Shown: positions 32,301 through 60,451 of the stretch, one piece after another
Numbering within the stretch: the stretch's first letter is position 1
How the letters are laid out: the number at the start of each line of letters is the position of its first letter
Assembly (NCBI RefSeq): GCF_025602895.1
Contig: NW_026516212.1
Coordinates: forward strand, 558,001 to 622,000
Source: Polychytrium aggregatum
Taxonomy: Eukaryota; Chytridiomycota; Chytridiomycetes; Polychytriales
Length of the DNA: 64,000 nt
Direction of reading: 5' to 3'
Position numbers and translations under genes: made by a program
Notes under the pieces: generated by a model
Seen by the model: only the letters and a program-made list of their open reading frames with translations
Databases searched by the model: none
Told to the model about the DNA's origin: nothing

Positions 32301-35300
32301 CCACGAAAACGACCATGTCATCACCGGCATTTCAGTACCTTGAAGCACGATATCAAGGTGATCGACCATCTTTCGCTGAGATTGTCCTGCAGAAACTCCG
32401 AACGGCTCGGACCAGTCTGCGAACCGGCGAAGCACCCGTCATGATGGTCGCTGACTCGCTCTCTGAGCTTGCCGGCCATCCCTCGGCCTCCGTCGACACC
32501 CCGTATCTCTGCAAATCGCTTGAGCAGCTGCAGTTGGCAGTCCCCGAGCCAAGTCTCGACAAAGGCAAGGCCGCGTCCAGCAAGGCCTGGATATACCTGG
32601 GTCTGGCCATGCTCCGGGCATACGTGCCCGAGGTCCCAGTCGACCCCGCCGCTGCCCCCGCGGTCAAGTATCGTTTCGCCGCCGAGAGCCTCGCCCGGAT
32701 CGAAAGTGACATTCAAGTGCGCTTCAATATGGAACAGCTTTGCACCGGAAACAAGTCGAACCCAGCAATCGAGCGCCTTGTCGCCACGCGTCGGGAGCTC
32801 CAAGAGCTTCAGACCAAACTCTCGGCTCGCATTTCCTTGCGCCCGGAGCACTCGCAGATACTCGAGATCTTCAGTGACCTCAGAGTACTCTCGACCAGCG
32901 CCCTCTCAGACAACTCCATTCTGTCACTTCTCGCGGCATTCGACTCGGCCGATGCCCTGGAGGTCGAGAATGCACTCCAGCGCGAGTTGTCACTGCAGGA
33001 AACTCTAGCAGCGTACCTCGAGCGAATGGAGGCCAAGTACCCTCTGTACCGTGATATCTTGCAGCCGGTGTATGTGGCCGTCCAGCAAATCCGCTTGGGC
33101 CTGAAACTGCTCGTCAGCGACATCAACTGCTCCGATGTCCACCTGACAGACCGTGCCTTCTCCTCGCTCTTGTGCTTTGTTGGAGATGATCTGTCGTCGA
33201 CCAACGGAGTCGCTCCTGTCATCGAAGGCTCGCTACGTAGCATCCGTCGCAACATCCAGATCTCCCAGGGTCAATCCGACAAGAAGGGCAAAGTCCATGT
33301 CCAAGCCATCCTGGCGCTAATGCGTAGAGTTCTTTCGTCCTCGCTGATCCGAGGTGCACCGGGCAAGCCCATGCTCTCGGCCGCTCATGCACTCATGGGC
33401 GAGCTTGTCGATGTCTGGGGACTCGCTGAACAGCGTCGGGTCGAGCGCCAGAAGGAAGAAGACGAGCTCTTCAAGTACAAGCAGCGCTCGCATGATATTG
33501 GCACCGAAGACGAACTCCTCGAAGGAGAATTCAAGGAGATATTCCCGGATTTTTACGGCGAGTACTCAGACGTTATCGCGGCCGGCCTACCTCCGCTGAA
33601 CCAAGAGCCCGACGGCGATGGCAAGAAGGATCCCAGCAAGGACATGGACTTTGAAGAAGCCGGCGTCGACGAGGCGTTTGCTGTGCGGCATATTCATGCG
33701 GAGCTGATTGACACCTGGGACGCCAATGGTTGCCAAACACGACCGTTTGAAGTCCATTGGAATGAGGCCATTTCCGATTCCTATGCCGTAGCCGGTGAGA
33801 TACTGCAGCTTCGCGAATGCCTGCCCTCACGTGGCATCGACTTCACCGCACATGGAGCCCATGTGTTCATGGCTCGCAAGCGATGCCTTGGCTTGGGCAC
33901 GTCCGAGGAACAGGATGGCCATTACGATTTCTACAAGGACGCCAATATCCCCGAGGCCCAGAAGATTCTACCGGTGCTGCAGTCATTCGATCTGCGCGTT
34001 TCTTCTCTGTTGGATCAGTGGCCTGATCACACTGTATTGCTCCAGCTCCTGGTGATTGCTCGTCGCATCTCAGCCTTTGCGGTCACATCGCCGATCATGA
34101 AGCTTCTCACGGGCCTGGAGCTTCTCTTGCAAAAATGCGACGACTGGGAGAGCTACGCGTCCAAGGAAGTTAGCCTCAAGGCGAACATGACCGAAATGAC
34201 AGCGCTCATCGTCGAGTGGCGAAGGCTCGAGCTCCGTTCCTGGAAGCAGCTACTGGAAGTCGAGGATCGCCGTGCCCAGGCACAGGCATCCAAGCTCTGG
34301 TTCCACTTGTACAAGGTTGTCATCGGCGTTGCCATGAACTCGGCCAGTGAGCAGGTATGGATGATCAATGCATGGTCCAGAGTGGGCGAGTATCTGACAA
34401 CCTGTGATCGAAGAAGCTTCTCGTTTTTTTCCGGTGGCGCGGGTGTCCATTTGAAGTGAAGTTGGCTCAAAGGCATGCCTACTTGTATCGACGCCACGGT
34501 CAACGACGCCTCGGATGGTTCCGCCGACGTCATTCCACTCACGACTGCATGTCTAATCACAACCGCCATTGCCCCCACCAGACCACTGATCACAACCAGG
34601 ACGATGCCTTGGTCAAAGAGCTACTCTCGACACTGGACCAACTCTGTCTCTCGTCTTCGCTCGGAGAGTTTGCGATCCGTCTGGGCATGATCAACAGCTT
34701 CCACCGACATCTCTCTGTGTGTGCCAAGCATGTTCCTGCCGGGCATCTCGGCCGCCTCACCTCTGTCTCCGACGTCTTGTGGAATGTGCTTCAGTACTAC
34801 TCGCAGTTCCTGCCCGAGATTGCAAACACCGTCGAGCGTCAGCGCAAGCCTATTCTGAAGGAGCTCCACGACTATGTCAAAATCGCGACCTGGAAAGATG
34901 TCAACGTGTACGCCCTGCGCGAGAGCTCCAACCGCACCCATCACCACCTCCACAAGTTTGTCAAGAAATACCGCGAGATACTTGCGCAGTCTGTGACCGA
35001 CACGATCCGAGCCAGCCAGCAGTCGGTGCCTCTCGATGGTGGCAAGTCTGTTCACGAAACCACCTCGGCTGCTGCCCAGCGCATTGCCACGACTCTAGAA
35101 CACACTCTATCGACAGAGACCACGGGTGCAGTGCCCACACAACCACCTTGGAATGGTACTCGGGACGTTTCTCAGTTGATGGCGCGGATGCAAAAGCTAT
35201 CTCAAAAACTCGGTACGCAGATCTCGGCCTCGATCGAGACCGCGAATGGCATCGACGATGTTGCTGGTTCAATACTGCAGCGCATCCAAGAGTTCCAGGA

Positions 35301-38300
35301 CGCCAATGCCACACTCGATCCCGCTTCCAAAGCTGCCAAGGGGCAAAAAGCCCTCCGCAAGAAGGCCCTGGTGGATCTGCTCAAATATCTGGCCCACTTG
35401 GGGCTGTCATCCCGCTGCATCCACAAGTACATGTACCAGCGCGAGTACAGTTATGTCTACTCTCTCCCTGCCGCTCAAGCAAGTCAGTGGATTGAGCTGC
35501 TCGGCAAGGCGTGCCCGTCAGGGCTGGAAAAGGATCTTGGATCTCTGTGGACAAAGGCCAACGACTACTACTTCCGGCTGCTTGCCCGGACTGCTGTGCT
35601 AAGAGAAGGCGCATTCTCGTGGTCGAGCGACCTCACAGACCGGGAGGTCGAGCGCACGGTCAGCAACGTAGAGCACCTCCTCCATCTCATCATGGAGGAG
35701 CGCCGAGTGATTTCCGAGTTTGGCAAGGAGCTCGAGGCAGCCGGCCGCTACGTGACTCAAATCCAGGCACTCGTGGCTCCCACAGAAACTGGCGATGCCG
35801 TGTCGATGCTGCCTGCCGAAGCAGCGCTCGAAGCTATCGAGCAATCCAAAACATCCGTGGACGAACTGGTGGTCCAACTTCGCCAGACCCGGATGCTGGT
35901 CAAAGCCCACCATTTCGCCGAAGCAGCCACCGCCAGCGACATGCTTGCTCAGATCGACAAGTGTATTGAGTCCTTGGCCGCGACCAAATCGAAAGCTGAC
36001 GCTTGGATGTGCTTGCTCGACACCTGGTGGATCAACCAGGCAAGCGCCGCCGCTGTGCCGAATACCGTTCTCTTGCTACTCAAGCAGAGCCAGGAGGCTG
36101 TTGGCGAGATTGTCTATGTGATCGACCAAGTCCTCGCTCGTCACCCGGAAACAGCATACATCCTGAGTCCCCTTCGACAAGCGGCTCTTGGCCATTCACA
36201 GCGGTTGCAGCGGCAGCCTACACTGGTCTCGGATGCGATCGATCCAGCGTCCAGCGATCTGGTATCGGTCTCTGGCGATAAGTTGGTGGACGCCATCCTG
36301 ATTGCGTTCCAGGAGCTGCGAATGAGTCCAACCAACAGTGTCCCGGAGAACAAGGCGCCTGCCCCTGGGGCCGACGGTGCGGCTGGCAATGAGGCCGACG
36401 AATTTGGCCTGTCCCAGGGTTTCATCTTGGACGAGCATCAGAAATTCCTCAAGGTCTTCAAGGCCAGCCCGCTTGCCAACGTCGTTACCGCAATTCAAAG
36501 TGTCCTCACGCCTCCGAACATGGGCTCGGCTGTCGCTGTCGAAGGACTGCACTCATCGTCAGTCGCTCTTCGCCACATTTGCCCGCTTCTGAAGCAGTAC
36601 CTTGCGGCTGCCGAGTACCGCATGTGCGAGCTGATGGTGTACCACAAATCCATCAACAAGCTGGCATATATTCTTTGCAACACATTCGCGTTGCTGCTCA
36701 AAAACGGCTTCTGCGTGCCACAGGCATCCGACGACAGCGCCGAGGGCGAAACTGAAGACAACGTTGATGGAACCGGCATCGGGGAGGGTGAGGGCAACAA
36801 AGACGTCAGCGATCAAATCGACAACCCGGAGCAGGTAGAGGGGACGCAGAACGAGCAGAAGCAACAGCCCAGCGGCGAGCCTGTCCCTGAAGAAGAGAAC
36901 GCTCTCGAAATGGATGAGGACTTTGATGGCCAAATCGAGGATGTCAAACGAGAAGCCGGCGACGATGACGACGACAAGGATGACGACGACGAAGAAGAAA
37001 ACGATGCTGCCGAGGAGCAAATGGGCGAACTCGATCGCGACGAAGCTGATGTTGTTGACGAGAAGCTCTGGGGCGATGATGACGACGATCAAATCGATAA
37101 GGACAACGAAAAGACGGAAAAGAATGCCTCGGTGGACTCCAAGGGCGGTGAGACTGAAACGGTTGCCAAAGATGAAAGCGGCCCCGACGATGAACAGCCT
37201 CCCGAACCGAAAGATGAAGCAGAAAAGCGCGAGCAGGATAGCAAACGCAACGCCGACAACGGCTCAGAGGCTTCGGATGACGAGAGCGACCATGTCAACG
37301 ATATCGAGGACGCCTTTGAAGATAGCCACGGAGTGGATATCAAGGACCGCGACCAGCCAGAGGAGCCCGATGGAGACGACGACATGGATCTCCCTGAAGA
37401 TATGAATCTCGATGGCGATGGCGACGAAAACGAAAACGAAAACGATGACGATGACGATGGCCACAATGACATGGAAATCGACCGCCCCGATGACGACGCC
37501 AAGCCCCGAGACGACGAGAAGAATGTCGGCGACAACGGCGATGCAGATAGCTCGGATGAAGAAGCAGCGGACGAAGCCGACGATGGCGAGGGCGACGACC
37601 ATGTTGACCAGATCGAAGATCAGCTTGATGAGTCGCCTACCGAGCAGCCAGGCGATAGATCCGACAACGATGAATCGTCTCAGCAGCCCGATGAGCCGGA
37701 GGAGCCGGAGGAGCCGGAGGCGCCGGATGAGGCTGCTGACCCAGCCAACAACAGCATGCAGCCCCACGGAGGAGAGGACCCAGCCGCAGACGAACAGGAC
37801 GAGTCCGAGGCCAAAGAAGACGATACCAAAGCTGTCGACGATCGCGAGCAATCTAGAGCCGAGCAGCCCCATGGCGTCGAGGGCCAGGCGGGACAGGTAT
37901 CAAACATCCAGTCTAGCGAGCCCACGACGGGAGAAGGGACTGGTGCCGACAACCAGGCTGCTGACGACTCATTCGAGCATGCCGATGCCAGCGAGGCCAA
38001 GCCCACCCAACGGCCCGCAGCCTCGCAGCAGCAGAAACAGAAACCGCGCAAACCCGATCCCAATCCGCGCAGGAGCCTTGGCGATGCACTCAAAAACTGG
38101 ATGTCCCGCCTCAAGTCCATCTCCGAAAGCTCCCAAGATCGCGCCGAAGAACCGCAGCAGTCCGAGCAGAACGAGCAGCCCCAAGTGGATGGCGATCAGG
38201 CAATGGACTATGAGTTTGTTCAAAACGATGACGAGGCCGCAGATGCCCAGGCACTCGATGCTGCCACCTCGGAGCAGATGTCTCAGATGGACCAAAAAGC

Positions 38301-39600
38301 CCTCGCGGACGATGAGGAGGAGGACAACTATGCCAAGCAAGATGAGGAGATGCAGGTTGACGATCAACCCGCCGAGGAAACACCGGCATTCGAAAAGAAG
38401 CCTGATCAACGCAGCAACGACAACCAAAATGTCAGCGGAACACTTCCCAATCGACAGAAGGAGAGCGACGATAGCGCCGATGCCGAAACAAGGCCCGCGG
38501 GCGAAGATCTGGCAGCCGATGAAGACCACGACGACGGCGATGGTGATGATGCCCGCGACAACCTTGCATCGACCGACGATCAATCCCGTCGCCAGCGACA
38601 AGATCCCCAGAGTGACGAGGATATGGGCGATACGAGCGACGAGCACGACGAAGCCGAGCTGTCGTACGAAGAGCTCCGACAGAACCTTGAAAAGTCTGTT
38701 GCCGACTGGCGTCAGTCCGGCCAAGATCTCCGCGAAGCCGAGACGCTCTGGAAAAACTACACCAATCTGACCCAAAACCTGGCCTTTGAACTGTGCGAAC
38801 AACTGCGGCTCATCCTTGAGCCTACATTAGCCACCAAGCTCAAAGGTGACTATCGCACCGGCAAGCGGCTCAACATGCGAAAGGTCATTCCGTACATTGC
38901 CAGTCAGTTTAAGAAGGACAAGATTTGGATGCGCCGAACCAAGCCCTCCAAAAGAACATATCAAATCCTTATTGCGATTGACGACTCGCAGTCGATGGCC
39001 GAAACCAGATCGGTTCAGATGGCGTACGAGTCTCTGGCGCTGATTTCCAAGGCCCTGACACAACTCGAGGTCGGCGACCTCGGCATCGTTAGCTTTGGTG
39101 AGAGCGTCAGGCTCGTCCACCCCTTCGAGCGGCCTTTCTCGGACGATGCCGGAGCCGAGGTGCTGCGACGGTTCACATTCAGCCAGGGACGCACAAACGT
39201 TCGCACGATGATGGACACGGCGATCGAGGTGCTCGATCATGCTCGGCTCGTCACCGCCACTGCCCCGGGTGCCGATGAGCTCTGGCAGCTGCAGATCATC
39301 ATATCGGATGGCATTTGCGAGGATCACGAAAAGATCAAGGCGCTGGTGCGGAAGGCAGCCGAAAACCGGATCATGGTCGTCTTTCTTGTGCTCGACAACC
39401 GACCCGAGAAAGACTCGATCGTCAAGATGACCAATGTGACGTACGGAACCGACTCCAAGACCGGCCGGCCCACGCTGCAGATGAGCAAGTACATGGATAC
39501 CTTCCCGTTTGACTATTATGTGATGCTACGAGACATCAATCGGCTTCCAGAAGTGCTCTCGGACACCCTGCGCCAGTACTTTTCGTTTGTCAGTGCCTGA
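20392..39600 (+). CDS. MDN1: Midasin, AAA+ ATPase of 60S ribosome biogenesis
   Basis: Midasin is a dynein-like nuclear ATPase that removes assembly factors (Rsa4, Ytm1) from pre-60S particles. Sixteen phase-consistent exons: 20392-20987, 21176-21520, 21634-21992, 22210-24665, 24911-26477, 26642-29427, 29571-29903, 30026-30374, 30496-30638, 30749-31006, 31102-31240, 31462-31637, 31766-31839, 32007-32160, 32336-34354 and 34600-39600, about 5,584 residues (yeast 4,910, human 5,596). Six Walker A loops appear in order: GGPGTGKTS (about 21930), GETGTGKTS (23143), GPTSAGKTS (24510), GETGCGKTT (25632), GSPGVGKTS (26995) and GPTASGKTS (27949), most with Walker B motifs such as LLDELNLA. A linker of about 2,500 residues follows, then an Asp/Glu-rich tract (about 36750-38650). 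The C-terminal VWA/MIDAS domain has ILEPTLATKLKGDYRTGKRL and the metal-binding DDSQS (38980). The start is chosen because MCADAND gives the usual N-terminal length. The small exons at 31.1-32.2 kb are the least certain. Confidence 0.96.
36750..38650 (+). other. Acidic Asp/Glu-rich linker of midasin
   Basis: About 630 codons are dominated by Asp, Glu, Gln and Asn, as in the acidic tether between the linker and the MIDAS domain of all midasins. Its antisense frames read as hydrophobic Ile/Val/Leu strings and should not be called as membrane proteins. Confidence 0.9.
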
Positions 39601-39751: not shown

Positions 39752-40950
39752 TCATGTGTTGCTGCGTTGCACTTGCGACCACTTGTTGCTGATGAATTCG
39801 CCAAATGGCATGAGCCGCTCCGAAGGCCCAACAGCCTCGGGGTCGCGGCCGAGGGACTGGTTGTCGAAGAGGCTCAGGTTCTGGCGCAACGAGTCGAGGA
39901 CCGGGATCTTGGCATCGTAGTTCGGATAGTAGAACAGCACGAACGAAAGCCTCTCGGTGGCGCCATCCGAAACAACTCGATGCAGGGGCGAGCGGAAGAC
40001 CCCGCCAGAGATCAGCGACAGAAAGTCGCCGCCGTTGACGACGATTGTGCCTTCGACTGGAGGGACATCCACCCACGAGTTGCCCAGGTTCACCTGGAGC
40101 CCGGTGACACCGGGTTGCTGCACGATCAAGGTCAAGAAGCCCCAGTCTGTGTGAGGCGAGGAGCCGATCCGGTCTGGGTGGGCAAGACCGCAGGGGAGAT
40201 CATCGGCTCGATGGTAGGGAAAGTAGCGGAAGAGCCTCATCATCGAGATGGTGTTGCCGGCATCGCAGAGCCTCGGGAGAAACCCAAAGGCCTGTCCCAG
40301 AGCCAGCGAAAGGCCCCCAGAGATGGCAAGGGACACCTCGACCATATCGTCGAAGAGCTCTTGCATTGCTGGCTGAAAGCCAGGAAGCTGATCTGGCGAG
40401 GGCCAGGTGTTGGGTCCCTGGAGGTTGTTGCGCGGAGCAACGCTCTTGCTCCATGGAAAGCCGTACGAAAATGCCTCCTTGACCTCAAAGGCATCCGAGC
40501 CAGATTCAGCGCCTGGCGAGGCCGCAGAGCAAGCGCGCGAGAGAGTGAGGATGTGGGCATGGAGCCAAGTGCGTCCTGTGTGGGGATGGATGGATGGCTG
40601 TACCTACCTATGCCGATGTAACCTCTCAACGAGCCGCTAGCCGTCGCCGATATAGAGTCTTTGGTGCTCTGGGGAAGATCGAAAAAGCCCTGGGCCTGCT
40701 GCAGGAGCTGGCTCTGCCGCTCAGCATGGATCCGGTGGCCGTCTATGTAGCATACCCCCACGCCAGCAAAGGCGTCTCGCAGCTGGGCAGCAACTTGGAC
40801 GGCCTCGGGGGTCGCCGGTCCGCTTCCCTGCATGAGCAGCGGCGCGATGTTGATGCGAGGAATCTGCGGCTGCGGCTGCGAAGAGAACATGCGGGCAAGC
40901 GGGGCGAAAGCCCGAGCATGTCGCCCACGGCGAATCGACCCTGCGATCAT
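39752..40950 (-). CDS. 2-oxoglutarate/Fe(II)-dependent dioxygenase, probably mitochondrial
   Basis: Two exons, 40950-40608 and 40512-39752, join in phase 1 (GTAGGT donor, GCCAG acceptor) to give 367 residues. This is the isopenicillin-N-synthase-like family: an N-terminal DIOX_N segment (IPRINIAPLL, GVCYIDGHRI, FFDLPQSTKDS, RGYIGIG), then a double-stranded beta helix with the iron ligands His235-Asp237 (SPHTDWG) and His292 (FRSPLHRVV), and the 2-oxoglutarate-binding Arg302 with Ser304 (ERLSF). Such enzymes hydroxylate or oxidise small molecules. The substrate cannot be read from sequence. The N-terminus (MIAGSIRRGRHARAFAPLAR) is Arg-rich, lacks acidic residues and looks like a mitochondrial targeting peptide. 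An internal Met at FSSQPQ would give a cytosolic form. The gene is divergent from the CNB-F-box gene, about 550 bases apart. Confidence 0.88.
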
Positions 40951-41500: not shown

Positions 41501-44500
41501 ATGTCCCAAAGCAGGCCCAAGAAGCGCACCAGCGGCGCTTCCTTCGATGCCACAATACGGAAGTTTCTCGAGGACCATGTACTCTTCAAGGGCCTCGACG
41601 AAAACTTCATCACTCTCCTTGCCTCAGAGATGCAAACGCGTATCTATAACGACAAGGACTATGTCATCCGAAAGGGCGAAGTGGGCCGCGCCATGTTCTT
41701 TGTCTTCAGGGGCCAAGTGAATGTCATTTCGGAGGACGGTAAGTCTACGAATGCCGTGGGTGTTCCGCAAATGCCGCACGACAAGATGGCGGGTCGCAGC
41801 TTTGGTTGCCGAAGAGTTGTTCCCGCAGGCTGGTTTGCATGGCCGGACGTGCAATAGCCCGAATTACTGTCGTCCTCGCAAGCATGCGTCGAGATGTACT
41901 TTGCGCATCACCGGGGGCCCAGACCCAGGCTCTCTTTGCCCTGAGCTCTCGCCGCCGCACTCACATCCTGCCCTGCATCCATACTACAAATATGGCTTCT
42001 GTTTTCAGGTGAAACTATCGTAAACGTGATGAAAGATGGCTCGTTCTTTGGTGAAATTGGCTTACTGTTCTCTGTGCCGCGGTAGGTTGCCCACGAATCA
42101 CTACGCTCGACTCTTGTAATAGCTACCGAATAGCGCCGTCTCCTCTTCGTATATGGATCGATTCACGCTGAACAATCGCCAATCTTTTGTGTGTCGCCAG
42201 AACTGCGTCGTGCCGAGCATCGGGTCGGTCGATTATCCTGACTCTTACGAAGGACAGACTCCAAAAGTGCGTGAAAGACTATCCCAAGGTGGCAGAGGCG
42301 ATCTCGCATATTGCCGAAGAGAGATTTGCGTCGTACATGAAGCAGAAGGAGGAGCAGCATGAAGTCGAGTTTGGCGAGGAGCTAAAACTTTCGATGACCA
42401 ACGACGATCTCAAGTCGGTGCGTATTTGCTCTTCCGCCGGTCACGCTGTGCTGCATTTGGTTCTCGGTCGATGCTTTCCACGCTGCCCTTTACAAGCCTG
42501 GTTGCGAGTGAGTCCACCAAGATCTCGGTGCCCTGTGCTAATTCCTTATATTTGTGCACGGACCGTACTGCCTTTGCGCTTGAGAACAGGTGCCATTGTT
42601 TCGGGACTGTGAAGTCGGGTTTCTGCACATGCTGGCGCTCCATCTCAAGCCAGTCCAGTATCGCCAGAACAATCTCATTATCAAGAAGGGAGACTATGGC
42701 ATGGAAATGTACTTTGTCGTGCGTGGAATTGCCGAAGTGTTTGGTGACGATGGCAAAGTCTATGCACAATTTCACCCCGGCTCATTCTTCGGAGAGGTTG
42801 CGCTTCTCTTCCGAATGCAGCGAACGGCGTCAGTTCGTTGCGTGTCCAACGTCATCAATGTCTTTAAGCTGACCAAGGAGTCGCTGGATAATGTTCTCAA
42901 GAACTTTCCCGAGATCAACGCAAAGATTCAAATCGAAGCCAAGAAACGCTTCCAAGAGATCGAGTCCCGTGAGCACACCAAGATAACCCAAAATGTCTCT
43001 GCCGATACGGCTCGAACTGAAGTGGAAGTTGCGCGCGAGAGACTCAAGACGGTAGGCCCAGCCGGGAAGTATGCAACATTCTAGATTATGGTTAATCACG
43101 GATATGAATAGACCTCCAAGGCGTGCATAGTCTCTGGGCTTACATCGACATTGTCTTTCAGGTACCGCTCTTCAAGGATGGGCCTGTCGGCTTCCTGCAC
43201 GAGCTCGCGCTGGCCCTCAAGCTCAGGGTGTACAAACCAGGAGAGAGAATCATCAACAAGGATGAAATCGGAACGTCCATGTACTTTGTTGTCGATGGAA
43301 TAGCCGAAGTGACCTCTGAGGACGGAAGCACCGTGTACGCCGAGCTTGGCGAAAACTCGTTCTTTGGAGAGGTTGCCCTGTTCTTCGAAGTCAACCGCAC
43401 GGCCTCGGTTCAGTCCAAGACTGGATGCACTGTCTTTGAGCTCAGCAAGGATTCGCTTCACTCGGTGCTCGACAAGCACCCATCCCTCCAGGCCAAGATG
43501 AGGGAAAAGGCCCTGGAGAACTACAACTTGTTCCAGTCGCGTCAAGCAGCACTCAAGCAAATCAAGGAGCGCTCCAAGGACCACAAAACCGAGCAATACG
43601 ATGTTGAGGCCACTATAGATCGACTCAAGGGGGTGAGTTCAACTTCCATCGGCTGCTGGGAGGTCGCGCAGCTTAGTAAAAGGACTAAAATCCGAATTCC
43701 GGCTATGTGCAATACAGGTTCCCATCTTCAAGGGCTGCGGAACAAACTTTCTTCAATCGCTTGCGGCTGTGACGACCATCCAGCTTTACAAATCTGGAGA
43801 CATTATCTTCAAGAAAGGAGAAAAGGCCACCCAGATGTTCTTTATCGTCCGAGGCACCGTCGAGATCACGTCCGAAGACTTGCAAACTGTCTACGATACC
43901 ATCAAGGAAGGTGGATTCTTTGGAGAGGTTGGATTGCTGCGCGGCATTTCAAGGACGGCGTCGATCAAAGTCTCAAGCTCCGACTGTGATGTCATCATTC
44001 TGACATCCAAGTCACTCGAGAAAGTACTGAAGGAGTACCCAGAGAGCTTCCACATTATCTCTCTCGAGGCCGAGAAGCGCTATCAGTTGACAGAGCAGCG
44101 TCGTAAGGAGCGCGTGGCTGCTGAGGGGGCTGAAGTGGCCGAGGACGAAGGACCGGGGACATCGTTTGTCGAGGAGTTCCGCCCCGAGCTTCCATCCGTG
44201 CCATTTGCACCGATCCCAGCAAACGAAGGTCCAACCAAAGCCCGAAAAAGCTCTAGTTTCAGCAGCATATTCAAATTCCGCGGAAAGAAGGAGAAATCTG
44301 GCAAGGACAAGCCCGGATCAGAGTCTGATAGCGCCATTGACAAGTCCCAGAGCAGCAACAGCGTCGAGAGCGCTCACTCTATCCAAAGCGAAAAGGTAGG
44401 AGCCACAAAGTTGATGATGCCGTCCTGCCTTCGCAACTGAGATCCAAAGTGCTTAATGTAGCCCCAGATGTCGAGGAGAGGGTTCGGAGTAAAGAAGTCA

Positions 44501-46275
44501 ACGAAGCGGTTGCTCAGGAGCTTCTCTGTCATCGGAGTGGTGCCCGGGAGCATCGCACATTCTGAGCCAGCTTTGGCTAAAGATTTGGGGTCGATGGATA
44601 TTAGACTTGGTACCAGCCTCCATCTTACTGAGTCAATGTTGCAAACTATCGATATCGCGGTCGGCTTGTATTTAGGGACCAACAAAGCTTGGCAAGTTCT
44701 TCCAAAATATCAAAAACACTCTCGGAAAGAAGGAAGAGAAGACTCGTGTTGTGCCCAAGGCCATCTCAGCATCGCCATCGATAAGCACCCCGACCGAGAG
44801 AAGAAAGGTCACGAATATCCTCGAGTTCAACGATCTCGAGTTTGGATATATCATCTCGTTTCTCTGTCCTCGCGACCGAATGCGGCTCCGTGGAGTTTGC
44901 ACCAAGTGGAACGACATGCTACACGACTCTCGCTTCTGGTCCATCATGGACTTTCGCGAGATGTTCAACACCGTCAATGGTGCGCTCCTCGACCATCTTT
45001 TCCTTGTAGCTGGACACCAGCTGCTCAAGGTCAACTTTGCCTCGTGCTGGCAAGTCTACGACGACGACTTGCGCACACTTGCCGTTGAGTGCCCAAATGT
45101 CACAAGTCTGTGCATCTCCAACTGCTGGAAGATCACAGATCGCGGCCTGGCCTTTGTTGCCCAGGCATCAAGCAAGCTTGTGGAGCTCGATATTAGCTAC
45201 TGCGGACAGCTCAGTGGCGCTGCCTTCGCCGATCACAAGTGGGGCACCCTGAGAAAGTTCGACATGACCTATTGCAAGCAAATTGGCGATGAGTACCTCG
45301 AGAAGCTCCTGTGCCGCACGACCGAGATCCAAGACCTCAGGCTCCGCCGATGCGTCCGCATCTCTGATTTTGGTCTCTTCCTTGTGGTTCGATACTGTCG
45401 GTACGTTGACCCTATCTGTGAGGCCGAGGCTTGACTTTCCCGCGACTATGAGATCGGTGTCGACACTTGCTGGGCTCCAAATCCACATTTCCGAGGACAA
45501 GATAGCTTCCAGCACCTCCACACTCAACTGCGGCGCTGGAGGATTAGCTTACATCCCCGTGCACATGTCGCTGCTGTTCTGTCAGTCTGTTTCTGCTTAT
45601 GGAAGGCTCACACCTGCTTTCTTGTTCGCTCCTTGTACTGCTTGATTTACGACGCACAGCTATCTACGATCGATCGACCTCTCCGACTGCGAACAGATAT
45701 CGGACAAATGCCTCAAGTGGATTGCCTCCAGCTGCTACAACCTCACCAGCTTCAATCTTACATTCTGCACCAGGATCACCAACGGCGGCCTCTACGACTT
45801 ATCTCTGGGATGCCAGCACTTTGAGTCGCTCAATCTGAGCCACTGTGTCCACTTGACCGACGCCGCAATTGTTTTTTTCTCAGATAGCATCAAATCCCTT
45901 CGGTTCCTGTCGCTAAGGCGCTGCAAGAAGATCACCGACGGGGTTATGGGCTATCTCGGGAGAACCGCGCCCCATCTGAGGGTCCTTGATGTCACCGGTT
46001 GCCCCAACATTTCACAGGCGGCAAAGGGCCAACTAGAGACAACCCTGAGGGGCATCGTCGTCCTCATGGACGTGCCCAGAGAAAAGAGAGGTATCTGTGC
46101 CCCCGGTGAGGGCAAGCTTCCGCGTGCCCTGGAGGTCCCCTTGTCGGTCATGTTCACTTCAATCCCCGCCAGTGACCGTGCTCAGCAGGGGCGCCAGAGT
46201 TCTGCCGACTCGGGCAAGAAGCGGGCTGGCTCGAAGAGCTCGGGCAAGCGGCAAAAATCGACGGTGGCCGACTAA
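41501..46275 (+). CDS. Four cyclic-nucleotide-binding domains fused to an F-box and leucine-rich repeats
   Basis: Eight phase-consistent exons (41501-41738, 42009-42081, 42201-42417, 42590-43051, 43162-43632, 43718-44395, 44676-45400, 45660-46275) give 1,159 residues. Four cNMP-binding domains lie at about 20-150, 177-300, 331-455 and 488-605. Each keeps the phosphate-binding cassette: FFGEIGLL with RTAS, FFGEVALL with RTAS, FFGEVALF with RTAS, and FFGEVGLL with RTAS, so all four look able to bind cyclic nucleotide. Domains 2, 3 and 4 each start exactly at an exon start with VPLF or VPIF. A Ser/Lys-rich linker follows, then an F-box (about 759-805: LEFGYIISFLCPRDRMRLRG, W motif), then Cys-containing LRRs (about 820-1080: LCISNCWKITDRGL, LDISYCGQLSG, LRLRRCVRISD, LSLRRCKKITDG), and a basic tail. 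Inference: an SCF adaptor whose action depends on cAMP or cGMP. The link across the 280-base intron 44396-44675 rests on phase-0 continuity. Confidence 0.88.
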
Positions 46276-47120
46276 GGCACCTTTGCGCAATCGTCCTCGC
46301 CGGGCTCGTGTTGAAGCCGGCATACAAGCCCACTGCGGCGACGACTGGCGGCTCACTCTCTCGGCAATCTCGACCTTGTCTGCAGCATTGCCCGATGTCG
46401 GCGACGCTCTCTCTTATCTCGTTTCCTCTCGCACCTCGCCTTGTCAATAAAATTTGGACACAGCTGCCGGCGCACCAGCAGGGAAGCGGGAGCGGGATGC
46501 CCGATTGCGCTGAGCGGAGTTTGAAACTGCTCCCAGTGTGTGTGTGTGTGTGTGTGTGTGTGTTGCGTGTGCAACACGGATCCGCTGACGGACACGTGCT
46601 TCATATGCGGCCTGCGCCACGTCGGTGATCGTCGGCACGGGTATTTAAGCCGCCCAGGCCTCGATCCCTCTCTCTCCCCATCCAACCACAACTATATCGG
46701 TGATGACGAATGGGTTGAAACTATATCCCAAGCCCTTCGCTTCGTGCTGGAGGGATATTGTAGAGGATTGCACACCCCCAACCACCTTGTTACAACAAAG
46801 TTGCAATTAGGAGAGCCTCTGAGCCGATCCCATAGTTGTCCTGGTTGGATTTCCCCCGCCTTTGCTCATCCCCCCTCATCATCCGCTACACACGTCGCCA
46901 TTCCGGCGCTGCCGGCCCAGCGTTCATGATTGCGATCCGAGGAAGGTCTTGTTTGCGTCCTCGGCGACCTTTCCCAGACTTGGCTACACTGGGCCACCCG
47001 GTGTCTGTGCAGAAGCCTCGCCCCCTTCGGCCATGGCAAATACTGTTTATTCCTATTTTTTGTGGACTCGGTGTATTGTTTGGCGATGGTCCCTCGTCGC
47101 CGCCCGTCCTTGGCGAGCCC
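46276..47120. other. Intergenic region between convergent genes
   Basis: No supported gene. The stretch holds a GT dinucleotide run at about 46535-46562 and a TATTTAAG at 46641. Frames after it lack domains. Confidence 0.5.
46535..46562. repeat. GT dinucleotide microsatellite
   Basis: A perfect alternating GT run of about 28 bases lies in the 3' flank of the F-box gene. Confidence 0.9.
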
Positions 47121-49245
47121 TTAGCTGTAAATCCTCCGTCCTGGCCTTCGGTATAGGATGGCCAGGACGATCGGCACCAGCAACAGGGCAGCCGTGGTCG
47201 TTGTGCCAACCGAGAGGAAGCTGGGACGGGGCAGGTCGTAAGTCGCTGCGTGCGGCCGCGGTGAGATCGTCCAGTCGCCATCAGCTGCGGATGCGTTGCC
47301 GATTCCAGCGAGCACCAGCTCCCACGATATCAGTGTGCCTTCGTCGGGCCACCTGGGGTCAAAGGCGCCATCATCGTCTCGGCGGTCGGCAAGACGGAGC
47401 TGCCACCGCCCGAGCGGCGATTCGCCCCAGTGATGCACGGTTGTGAACGTCCACGGATTGAATCCCTGATCGGACGTGTCTCTTGGTCTCGGGGTTCCCA
47501 GTATGCTTTCGGTACCAGCGGGCGAGACGAGGGAGATGGTCAGGAACCGGCGTTTCGGATGGACCAGTCGCAACACCACCTGAACGTGCTCGAGCCGCGA
47601 GATCATGTTGCTGCGATCGGGCCGAACCCTGATCTCGTCGATCAGCGCCGCATGTCGACCAACCGCCGCCGGGATGCGTCGGTGCACTCGCACACGATGT
47701 TTCCAATGAGGCATGGCCTCTGGCAACGACCGAAAGTCCCTGGCGGCCTCGATCAGCCGATACGCATCGACGGCACCGTATCCGTATTTGTGAGAAACAG
47801 GCAACCCGGCGCCGTTGGTCCGCCACCCAGGATCGCCCGGATCTGTGATCTTGGCGGAGTGGATAATCAGGTGCTGAACATCCCTCCATGTCAGATCGGG
47901 TCTGGCGCCCGATTCGTGTTCGTTATGCCGTCGATGGAGCCGTCGGGGAAGCGAGCATTGTGGCGTGCGAGTTGGTGCGCATGATGGTTGTATGAGATAG
48001 AGCATCAGACGGCGCTGCGGATAATGGGCCATGCAAGCAATGTCTGCGTCGACCGAGTGCGATACTATGTGCCACTTACCTATACGAAAGCAGCAGCGCA
48101 ATCACACCAGATGCATATGGGGCAGCCGCTGATGTACCCGTGTGTTCGGTGGTGCATCGGCCGCGAGGATCGGTTGTGCTCTAGAGAAGATGCGACAATA
48201 AGCGCTCGTTCGTGAATCGCGAACTTGTTATCAGACGATACGGAGTGCAGCAAGCTGTGGGGCTTACGATCACTTTTCCATGGCCGCCCGCATAGCTGAC
48301 AGCCAAATGGGCAGCACATGGCTCTGAGTACGGCGTGAGTACCCCGTCGTGGGTGATGGCACCCACAGAAATGGTGTAGATGCTGCTTGCATAGCCGTCG
48401 TAGTTGCAGTTGTCGGCTTTGCCGCCGTTGCCATTGGCAAAGACAAAGATTGACCCTCGGCCGTGCCGCCCGTTTCGAATGCCACTCTCGAGAGCGGCTT
48501 GAGCGAACCGACCGGGGCCGTCGAGCGATGAGCCGTCGTCCGCAGGTCCCCAGGATGACGAGTAAATGTCGTTGCGTTCCCATCGGTAGTTGAGTGCTTT
48601 AGCCTCAGTTGAGTCGAAAATGCCTTCTCCAAGTAGCCGCTCGGCTACGAGAGATTTGGACGGGTCAATTGCCGCACAATCCTGGATCCCATTATCGCCA
48701 TCGCCATCGCCATCGCCATCGCCATCGCCATCGCCATCGCCATCGCCATCGCCATCGCCGTCGCCATCGCCATCGCCATCGCTGCTTACCCGATATTTGG
48801 GCACCAAATGCTACCCCTGGTCCGCACTTGCTTCCAAGTGCTGCTGCGATCTGTCCCGCACAGCGTGTGCCATGTCGGTCATCTGGCTTTTGCGGAAGCG
48901 CTTGGGGGCCCTTGCTTGCAAAATCCCAACTTCCCTCGGAGCTCTGTCAGGACCGTGGCGGTCAGACAAGCACTTGACAGCGTCTGCCTGGATGCACTTG
49001 GTTTCCATCCGACCAACCATCGCCCTTACCCATGCCTTGGCAAGCCCCGGATGCAAATAGTCGACGCCATCGTCGAGTATGGAGACGGTGATTCCAGTTC
49101 CGTTGATGCCAAGTTCCCACACCGGTAGAACGTTCAGGTTGGATAGGAGACTGCTTTCATAGGCTGCCGGGCTCATGGGAGCCTTCAAGAAATGCCGTGG
49201 TCCAGTTGCATCAGCCATATGCTTTCTGATCACATCCCGCATTCA
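47121..49245 (-). CDS. Kexin/furin-like proprotein convertase, membrane-anchored (5' end unresolved)
   Basis: This is a subtilisin-family protease that cuts secretory precursors after dibasic sites in the late Golgi. Resolved exons are about 49236-49030, 48943-48790, 48644-48268, 48180-48080 and 47901-47121, all in phase. The catalytic triad is complete: Asp in [14 protein letters not shown], His in [10 protein letters not shown], Ser in [14 protein letters not shown]. The oxyanion Asn sits in VFANGNGG, and [10 protein letters not shown] is the convertase signature. The P domain follows (ITRLEH-like [37 protein letters not shown]), then a membrane segment ([16 protein letters not shown]) and a short basic tail. 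The signal peptide and pro-domain are not resolved. A frame at about 49560-49345 with SDVAWLQSRRR may be part of the pro-domain. A GCCATC array fills the intron 48645-48789. Confidence 0.87.
48695..48781. repeat. GCCATC hexanucleotide microsatellite in a kexin intron
   Basis: About 14 GCCATC copies (one variant GCCGTC) lie between the exon ending at 48790 and the one starting at 48644. Read as protein they give a Gly-Asp string, but the conserved convertase frame requires splicing across them. Confidence 0.85.
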
Positions 49246-58246: not shown

Positions 58247-59603
58247 TCAAGGATGCTCCATCAGCATATTAGAGGCACCGCCATTGGTATTTGCCGCCTG
58301 ATCTGGTGCGGCCTCGGATACATCTGGGGGCAGACCGGCGGCATCAGAGTTCTCGTCGGATGTCCATTCCTCCGCATTATCCGTGCTTGCGGCTTCGTCC
58401 ATGCCCTCCTCAGTTTCGGCCACAGAGACGGAGCTGAAGTGAATCCGCCACAGTGCTCGGTGCGTTGCGCACGTTACGGCTTTGATTCCGCCAACGACTC
58501 CAAACTCGCCGCTGTGTGGGGGATTCATCTCGGGCACGCCGTCGAGAGAGATGAAGACCTTGTGCCAGACACTCGAGTCGGAATAGTGGGGAAAGACCAC
58601 AAGAATGTACGCCGGGGCTTCGTCCTCGGCGGTGGCAGCCAAGCCCGAGACGACCCCTCGCCACCACGCCCAGGGCATTTGGTTGCCGTATCGCCACTGG
58701 ATCTCGACTTCCTCGCCGTTTCTGAAGATCGGAATAGCGGTGTCGAACACTCGCTCTACGGGGCGGAGGAACAGTTCTCGGACATAGATCTCGCGTGCGT
58801 CCATCTCGATCAGATCCTCGGTGACTCGTCGGAAGCGGGTGCGTTCGGTGACAGGGATCATCTCGTCGGTATGTCTCGAGTCCCCTCCTATCGGGGTTGC
58901 AGCAGAGAGGGGAGGTCGTCAGTCCGCACGGCCTTGAGATCCCAAGACGAGGCCGACGATCTCACACAGGAAGTCGCCAGTGCCGAGACCGACAAACGCA
59001 CAGACTGGACCGCCATCGGTGCCTACCGGTTGGTGCTCGAGTGCTCGGGCCGGATGGGACCCAGTCCTTGGGCCGCGGACGCAGCAAGATCTTCTCTCCA
59101 CGGCGAAGCGCAGAGATCGTCGAGGGTGCATAGCAGAGACAAAACGAGTTCGATGGCCAGTGGTAGGTCGCAACGGCGAGGAAAGCCGACATGGGCCTGT
59201 TCGAGAGCGAGTTGAGCACATGAAGGAGGCCCGAATATTGGCCCGATGCAATGACGAGAAACGCCCGCCTGAAACTCTTTGGCAGAGGCATGAACGGCTG
59301 ATCAATGGCACGGTGCGGGAAGGTGCATGCTTTGGAGAGACCAGAGCGGGATGCGTCGATGGTTGAGACGATCTGGGCAGTCGGGAAGTGGTATTCGTAC
59401 TCGAGGGTTTGCTCGCAGCTACCATCCCAGAAGAACCAAGGCCAGTGCCGGAAGCAGAGGCCCCGCCATAGGCCCTCGTCTGATGTCAGATGCTGCAGAT
59501 ATCTGCTGGTGCTGCCCAGCCTTGCGAGGTCGGCAGGGGAAAGAAACGAGAAGACGACCCGAAGGGGTAGCTCCGGCAGACACAGCAGAGAGCTGGTCGA
59601 CAT
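58247..59603 (-). CDS. F-box protein with a conserved C-terminal domain
   Basis: Two exons (59603-59027 and 58887-58247) join in phase 1 to give 405 residues. The N-terminus is an F-box (about 8-50): LPELPLRVVFSFLSPADLAR, then a Trp in GLWRGLCFRHWPWFFW, as in Skp1-binding adaptors of SCF ubiquitin ligases. The middle has no repeats. In the C-terminal exon, VFDTAIPIFRNGEEVEIQWR, MPWAWWRGVV and an acidic-hydrophobic run ending WHKVFISLDG resemble the C-terminal region of plant F-box proteins of the At2g32560 type, where a GEEVEVQW/WWxG block is conserved. The last 60 residues are acidic and disordered (EEGMDEAASTDNAEEW). The target is unknown. Confidence 0.8.
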
Positions 59604-60451
59604 GCTGCTGGCGATCCGGTCGAGAGAGATGTGTGCCAGGGACTGGATCCGCAGCCCGAGCAGCGACTGAGATTGGAGGAGAATCCAAGGACGGTCGTCT
59701 TGTCGCCACAGACAAATGAAATGAAATCAAATGAGGGCACTGCCCCGGAGCTGGTCAGCGCTCACCTGCCCATTCGCATTCGCCGCATCAACCGCACCGG
59801 CTCATCCGCACCGTCATTCGATCCGAATGTCTGATGCACTACTGTGGCACGAGCAGGTCAGGGGGCCGAAGGTTATTTCTCTCGGAGTGCAGCTCAGACA
59901 GCCCGGCAACCATGACACTTGGGCGACAACCGCAGCCCACAACCGCAATGTCAACGCGACCGGATCATGACCGCAGCGCACAGGGGCATCCGACGTTCAT
60001 GGAAGTTGCCCAGCCGCATCTTGCAAAATGCTTCGTGACCAGGAGCATCAGCAATAGGATCGGTGATTCAACCGCATTCACTTGGCGAACGCCGCTCGAC
60101 AATGGCAGTGGCTACTCGATCGTTTCCGGGCTGGTCCACTACCAGTCCAACAGCCACAGCGAAGGTGCCCATCCTCATTCGCAAAGCCTGCGTTGCTGGA
60201 CAGAGTAGTCCAAGTCTATTCGCTAAGCACGACGAAGCAATAAGAAACAATACCTGCGATGAATCATGGATCGTGGCCATTATCTCGTGAGCAGTTCTTT
60301 GTCTCCAGCCCTCAGCGCTGGACCAGCTCCTATAAATACAAAAAGTGAGGGCAGGGGAGCGAAGGAAAGCCCGCACAACTGCAGCCCTGCATCCTCCACC
60401 CGCTAGCATCGGGACACCTCATCAGTCTATCGACACATTGGCTCTTGAAGC
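59604..60451. other. Intergenic region between divergent F-box and chitin synthase genes
   Basis: No gene is recognised. Frames of 60-130 codons lack domains. A TATA element for the chitin synthase lies at 60332. Confidence 0.5.
60332..60339 (+). promoter_or_regulatory. Probable TATA box of the chitin synthase gene
   Basis: TATAAATA lies about 120 bases upstream of the ATG at 60452. Confidence 0.55.

Follow-up and report, generated by a model that had tools for sequence, protein, structure and literature searches.

A single predicted gene of Polychytrium aggregatum joins four cyclic-nucleotide-binding domains to an F-box and leucine-rich repeats

Introduction

Can cyclic nucleotides act directly on a ubiquitin-ligase adaptor? 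The question is raised by a 64,000-nucleotide stretch of the chytrid fungus Polychytrium aggregatum (assembly GCF_025602895.1, contig NW_026516212.1, positions 558,001 to 622,000; hereafter the window), in which a sequence-only reading had placed one phase-consistent gene for four cyclic-nucleotide-binding (CNB) domains, an F-box, and Cys-type leucine-rich repeats (LRRs), and had suggested that cyclic AMP (cAMP) or cyclic GMP (cGMP) gates ubiquitination by a Skp1/cullin-1/F-box (SCF) ligase. We think it probable that this locus is a single gene encoding a cyclic-nucleotide-sensing F-box/LRR protein of the LR_CC layout, described below, and that its product functions as an SCF substrate receptor responsive to cyclic nucleotides.

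Results

One open frame spans the CNB and F-box halves

Splicing at seven of seven GT-AG introns gives 3480 nt, equal to 1159 codons plus a stop, with no internal stops, and an upstream in-frame TGA starts six bases 5' of the ATG. Two regions bear on whether the halves belong together. First, intron 6, between the CNB half and the F-box half, contains stops in every frame (2, 6, and 4) and lacks an AATAAA; on the plus strand between 41300 and 46700, that signal occurs at 46446 only. Second, exon 7 is immediately preceded by TAG, and its first Met, codon 69, already falls within the F-box; a separate frame for the F-box half therefore could not start in this exon. Positions 41501-46275 are thus read here as a single predicted gene, and the start, end, and intron at 44396-44675 proposed for it earlier were all right (Table 1).

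Four CNB domains retain the phosphate cassette

A Pfam run on the spliced 1159-residue protein listed eight families at E up to 1, with E-values standing in for a chance test. The cNMP_binding family matched four stretches (241.7 bits against a cut-off of 27.5; E 4.6e-73). The cassette Glu and Arg are kept in all four, as had been claimed, and each Arg is followed by Thr (RTA). CNB3 is 48% identical to CNB2, and the window's CNBs are 20-27% identical to the PKA regulatory-subunit (PKA-R) domains of the same genome, the second PKA-R row being rough. CNB2-CNB4 most likely stem from exon duplication, since each has an exon to itself, preceded by a phase-0 intron.

The AlphaFold model of CNB3 (mean predicted local distance difference test score, pLDDT, 79.4) shows this domain in a predicted CNB fold, for which HCN, SthK, and CNG domains were the top structural matches. 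In VIA-align, chains of these channels came first and CRP-family and PKA-R entries followed within ~3 Z units; the fold of CNB3 therefore does not reveal its ligand. NCBIfam listed eight families for the CNB half, all eight below their cut-offs.

The F-box and LRRs follow in order

Pfam placed an F-box-like match at residues 772-806 (25.6 bits against a cut-off of 24.3) and an F-box match at residues 771-802 (24.0 against 20.5), followed by LRR_6 (63.4 against 23.4). A pattern scan found ten LxxLxLxxCxxL-type repeats with a spacing of 24-26 residues and starts from residue 829 to 1061. The F-box and Cys-type LRRs expected after the CNBs are thus present, in the order proposed earlier. The predicted LRRs are homologous to FBXL2, the top match both in phmmer (E 5.4e-41) and, for exon 7, in Foldseek. 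Among solved sequences, Skp2 (E 0.031) comes closest to the F-box, followed by FBXW7 (E 0.081), both being weak matches; the Skp2 alignment includes the VC..W and final W...D positions.

Like SCF receptors of the FBXL2/Skp2 type, among which FBXL2 is the best match in sequence and fold, the protein has an F-box and then Cys-type LRRs, but it adds four N-terminal CNBs, and its F-box is weak and its Skp1 binding predicted. It shares the CNB3 fold and RTA cassette with HCN, CNG, and SthK channels, but no channel domain is among the eight Pfam families. It shares CNB domains in series with PKA-R and PKG but has neither RIIa nor a kinase domain among the same matches, and its four RTA cassettes contrast with the RAA cassettes of PKA-R. 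We rejected the identity of a PKA regulatory subunit on the basis of the missing RIIa, RTA rather than RAA, and an RIIa-bearing gene elsewhere in the genome. In the consensus given in PMC2246266, PKG also has Thr after the cassette Arg.

The layout belongs to a published family

Kannan et al. (2007; Genome Biol 8:R264, PMC2246266) sorted CNB domains into 30 families, and row 8 of their Table 1 describes LR_CC (148 NR / 4 GOS sequences) as metazoan and fungal CNBs that usually form a tandem, as in the PKA regulatory subunit, and are accompanied by a C-terminal F-box and leucine-rich domain. The suggestion that the layout might be without precedent is therefore not supported, as it was catalogued in 2007; the accompanying caution, which allowed for uncharacterised homologues in fungi, was right. 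By layout, the predicted gene is a new LR_CC member: its CNBs likewise precede a C-terminal F-box and leucine-rich domain. The Thr after the cassette Arg in the LR_CC consensus (GEIGVLLDPPRTATVRA) is also present in all four of its domains. It differs in having four CNBs where a tandem is usual, and in that CNB1 alone of the four scores best with the LR_CC consensus. In this comparison, which took 12 of the 30 published consensus strings over 17 residues that decide little, in a family defined on CNB similarity, the best consensus was LR_CC for CNB1 (11 of 17), HCN for CNB2, Ch_prot for CNB3, and Ch_Bact for CNB4.

Searches aimed at the family, judged by title and abstract start and with subscription journals mostly and preprints wholly outside their scope, found no functional study of CNB-F-box-LRR proteins. 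The accessible text of a fungal F-box survey (PMC7991009) has no occurrence of 'cyclic' or 'cNMP', and the accessible part of a review (PMC11394779) treats cyclase motifs within plant F-box proteins, a different matter.

Related genes in the same genome

A second gene (L041:2442-5086), on the same contig ~114 kb past the window's end, encodes one CNB (cassette GEIGIVFGVNRTATVIA), a weak F-box, and LRRs in a model of 689, 674, or 634 residues, depending on the last acceptor chosen. Its C-terminal half is 27% identical to that of the window gene over 405 columns (E 2e-40), and its cassette scored best with the PKA-R consensus among the 12 used. One scan of viral contigs found no relatives of the full protein.

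Two paralogous genes, L042:2656-5351 (-) and L043:2637-5244 (+), have three CNB domains each. No F-box was seen after these CNBs in the translated frames, the Pfam scan having covered their CNB2 exons only. On the same strand past the third CNB of L042, near 960-1190, is a frame reading AVFDGHAGKAAAEW, which we take to be PP2C-like. A 15-row CNB tree, in which only 3 of 12 inner branches are starred and 8 are open, so that it is poorly resolved overall, pairs the domains of L042 with those of L043, with the CNB1-CNB1 and CNB3-CNB3 pairings starred and CNB2 less firm (84/74); it neither orders the window's four CNBs nor links them to L041.

Possible partners and ligand sources

The genome as searched comprised 64.7 Mb in 418 contigs, with cNMP-binding and F-box-like matches counted exon by exon. 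Skp1 (4 matches) and cullins (35 matches) are present, along with F-box-like matches (141 with an E-value of at most 0.01) and cNMP-binding matches (64 with an E-value of at most 0.001), many of the latter in duplicate contigs. One RIIa match lies near CNB matches and marks a probable separate PKA regulatory gene. There were 48 class III cyclase matches. Among the six cyclase loci read, three (L052-L054) show KVETIGD, which we take to be guanylyl-type, two (L055, L056) show FDVWGDTVNVASR, presumably adenylyl-type, and L051 shows neither. The three loci with YKVETIGDSYMVASGVP share the window's contig, and L053 and L054 are nearly identical over the stretch translated. Bac_rhodopsin, sought as a sign of a rhodopsin-guanylyl cyclase that could supply ligand, had no match in the genome; the controls had none either, so its absence is not established. 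Fungal_trans (11 matches) and Radial_spoke (8 matches), in searches with prokaryotic controls, together suggest a flagellated (zoosporic) fungus. Family matches often occur as near-identical pairs on two contigs, those on C2, C146, C179, and C235 being mostly unpaired among the matches listed; the paired contigs may be partly resolved haplotypes, or the assembly may hold more than one genome.

Features and neighbours of the gene

The window gene lies between a 2OG-Fe(II) oxygenase upstream (39755-40603, minus strand, E 8e-22) and a proprotein convertase P-domain gene downstream (47124-48101, minus strand, E 1.6e-23). Beside the latter is a frame with a long Asp-Gly repeat (48181-48810, minus strand). 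Farther upstream, a 1730-residue open frame (34408-39600, plus strand) with very acidic stretches and a terminal VWA domain (E 5e-7) resembles the C-terminal part of midasin. The window holds a further F-box frame at 58962-59726, minus strand (PF12937, E 5.0e-9, at C2:617448-617582).

Table 1. Features of the predicted CNB-F-box-LRR gene, in window positions
Feature	Position	Strand	Details
Whole coding region	41501..46275	+	8 exons, 1159 residues: CNB1-CNB2-CNB3-CNB4-linker-F-box-LRR x10-tail
Exons 1-3: start codon and CNB1	41501-41738, 42009-42081, 42201-42417	+	cassette GEIGLLFSVPRTASCRA, residue 94
Exon 4: CNB2	42590..43051	+	Pfam stretch entirely inside exon, phase-0 introns on both sides; cassette GEVALLFRMQRTASVRC, residue 244
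Exon 5: CNB3	43162..43632	+	phase-0 introns on both sides; cassette GEVALFFEVNRTASVQS
Exon 6: CNB4, then charged Ser-rich linker	43718..44395	+	cassette GEVGLLRGISRTASIKV, residue 556
Intron 6	44396..44675	+	phase 0, GT...AG, joins CNB half to F-box half
Exon 7	44676-45400	+	holds F-box
F-box	44847..44954	+	residues 771-806, in exon 7 (Pfam)
Ten Cys-type LRRs	45021..46050	+	residues 829 to ~1085, interrupted by intron 7 (45401-45659) (Pfam and pattern scan)
Exon 8	45660-46275	+	remainder of protein
AATAAA	46446..46451	+	171 bases 3' of stop

Discussion

The best mechanism that we infer is direct gating of an SCF ligase by cAMP and/or cGMP. The four N-terminal CNBs would bind the nucleotide, and ligand-induced closing of their C-terminal helices may alter how the F-box/LRR half is exposed or oriented. 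Through its F-box, the protein would dock on Skp1 within an SCF (cullin-1) ubiquitin ligase while its LRR arc would bind substrate, and the second messenger would in this way switch, in one direction or the other, the degradation of one or a few putative targets.

Several observations weigh against this proposal. The main ones are the weak F-box of the window gene and the weaker one of the second gene. The window F-box is the weakest part of the reading: it passes the Pfam cut-offs narrowly, its profile match begins at profile position 11 or 12, and in the model of this region, built on a two-row alignment, most of the F-box (model residues 58-87 of 58-93) has pLDDT values under 50. In L041, the F-box falls under both cut-offs (19.4 against 20.5; 13.4 against 24.3) while the LRRs are intact, and the F-box therefore may not be the family's shared working part. 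Moreover, a preserved cassette is no proof of ligand binding, another family's consensus outscores that of LR_CC for the L041 cassette and for three of the window gene's four, and the proposal stands on sequence and predicted models.

In a first rival, the protein binds cyclic nucleotide, its F-box is a degenerate relic outside SCF, and its LRRs serve as an anchor or scaffold, with cAMP or cGMP determining which partner they take. The marginal score, the low-confidence model of the F-box, and the sub-threshold F-box beside intact LRRs in L041 would all fit. We nevertheless consider it unlikely: the window F-box passes both Pfam cut-offs, it aligns, if weakly, with Skp2, the VC..W and final W...D positions included, and the LR_CC entry of 2007 includes an F-box (PMC2246266).

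A second rival holds that the CNBs have lost cAMP and cGMP binding and now mediate dimerisation or protein contacts, or recognise some other ligand. CNB domains with another ligand or none are described in PMC2246266, in PDZ-GEF and CooA, and the low identity of the window's CNBs to the genome's PKA-R domains would fit this rival. As given in the same source, the PDZ-GEF and CooA cassettes are non-canonical, unlike those in the window, all four of which keep Glu and Arg; in addition, ligand-bound structures of HCN, SthK, and CNG match the CNB3 model, although such a fold does not itself show function. This rival seems to us quite improbable.

Finally, we rejected as very improbable the wrongful merging at intron 6 of neighbouring four-CNB and F-box/LRR genes: although the gene model comes from genomic sequence, the frames of L042 and L043 end shortly after the third CNB, and the Met codons ahead of the F-box in the last exon of L041 make that gene, taken alone, weaker evidence and no proof of fusion, exon 7 of the window gene directly follows a TAG and has no Met before its F-box, intron 6 has stops in all frames and no AATAAA, L041 keeps the same domain order within 2.7 kb, and the CNB-F-box-LRR layout is that of a published family (PMC2246266).

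What a cyclic-nucleotide-responsive SCF receptor might do in fungi is suggested by work on Fusarium fujikuroi (PMC3585259), where deletion of adenylyl cyclase affects fusarubins but deletion of neither PKA catalytic subunit does; from this, its authors infer a further cAMP-binding protein, as yet unidentified. CNB-F-box-LRR proteins are candidates for such a PKA-independent cAMP receptor, and this candidate predicts an output, cyclic-nucleotide-dependent protein turnover. The layout has been in print since 2007 (PMC2246266), and its function has apparently not been characterised. We tentatively propose, as a possibility that falls short of our principal interpretation, that in P. aggregatum cAMP and/or cGMP may directly switch a ubiquitin-ligase adaptor by way of four graded sensors, that this adaptor could be the unidentified receptor to which fungi owe their PKA-independent cAMP effects, and that exon duplication enlarged it in what is probably a zoosporic fungus, one whose genome also carries guanylyl-type cyclase motifs. 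If this proposal is true, such proteins would form an effector class alongside PKA, PKG, Epac, and the channels.
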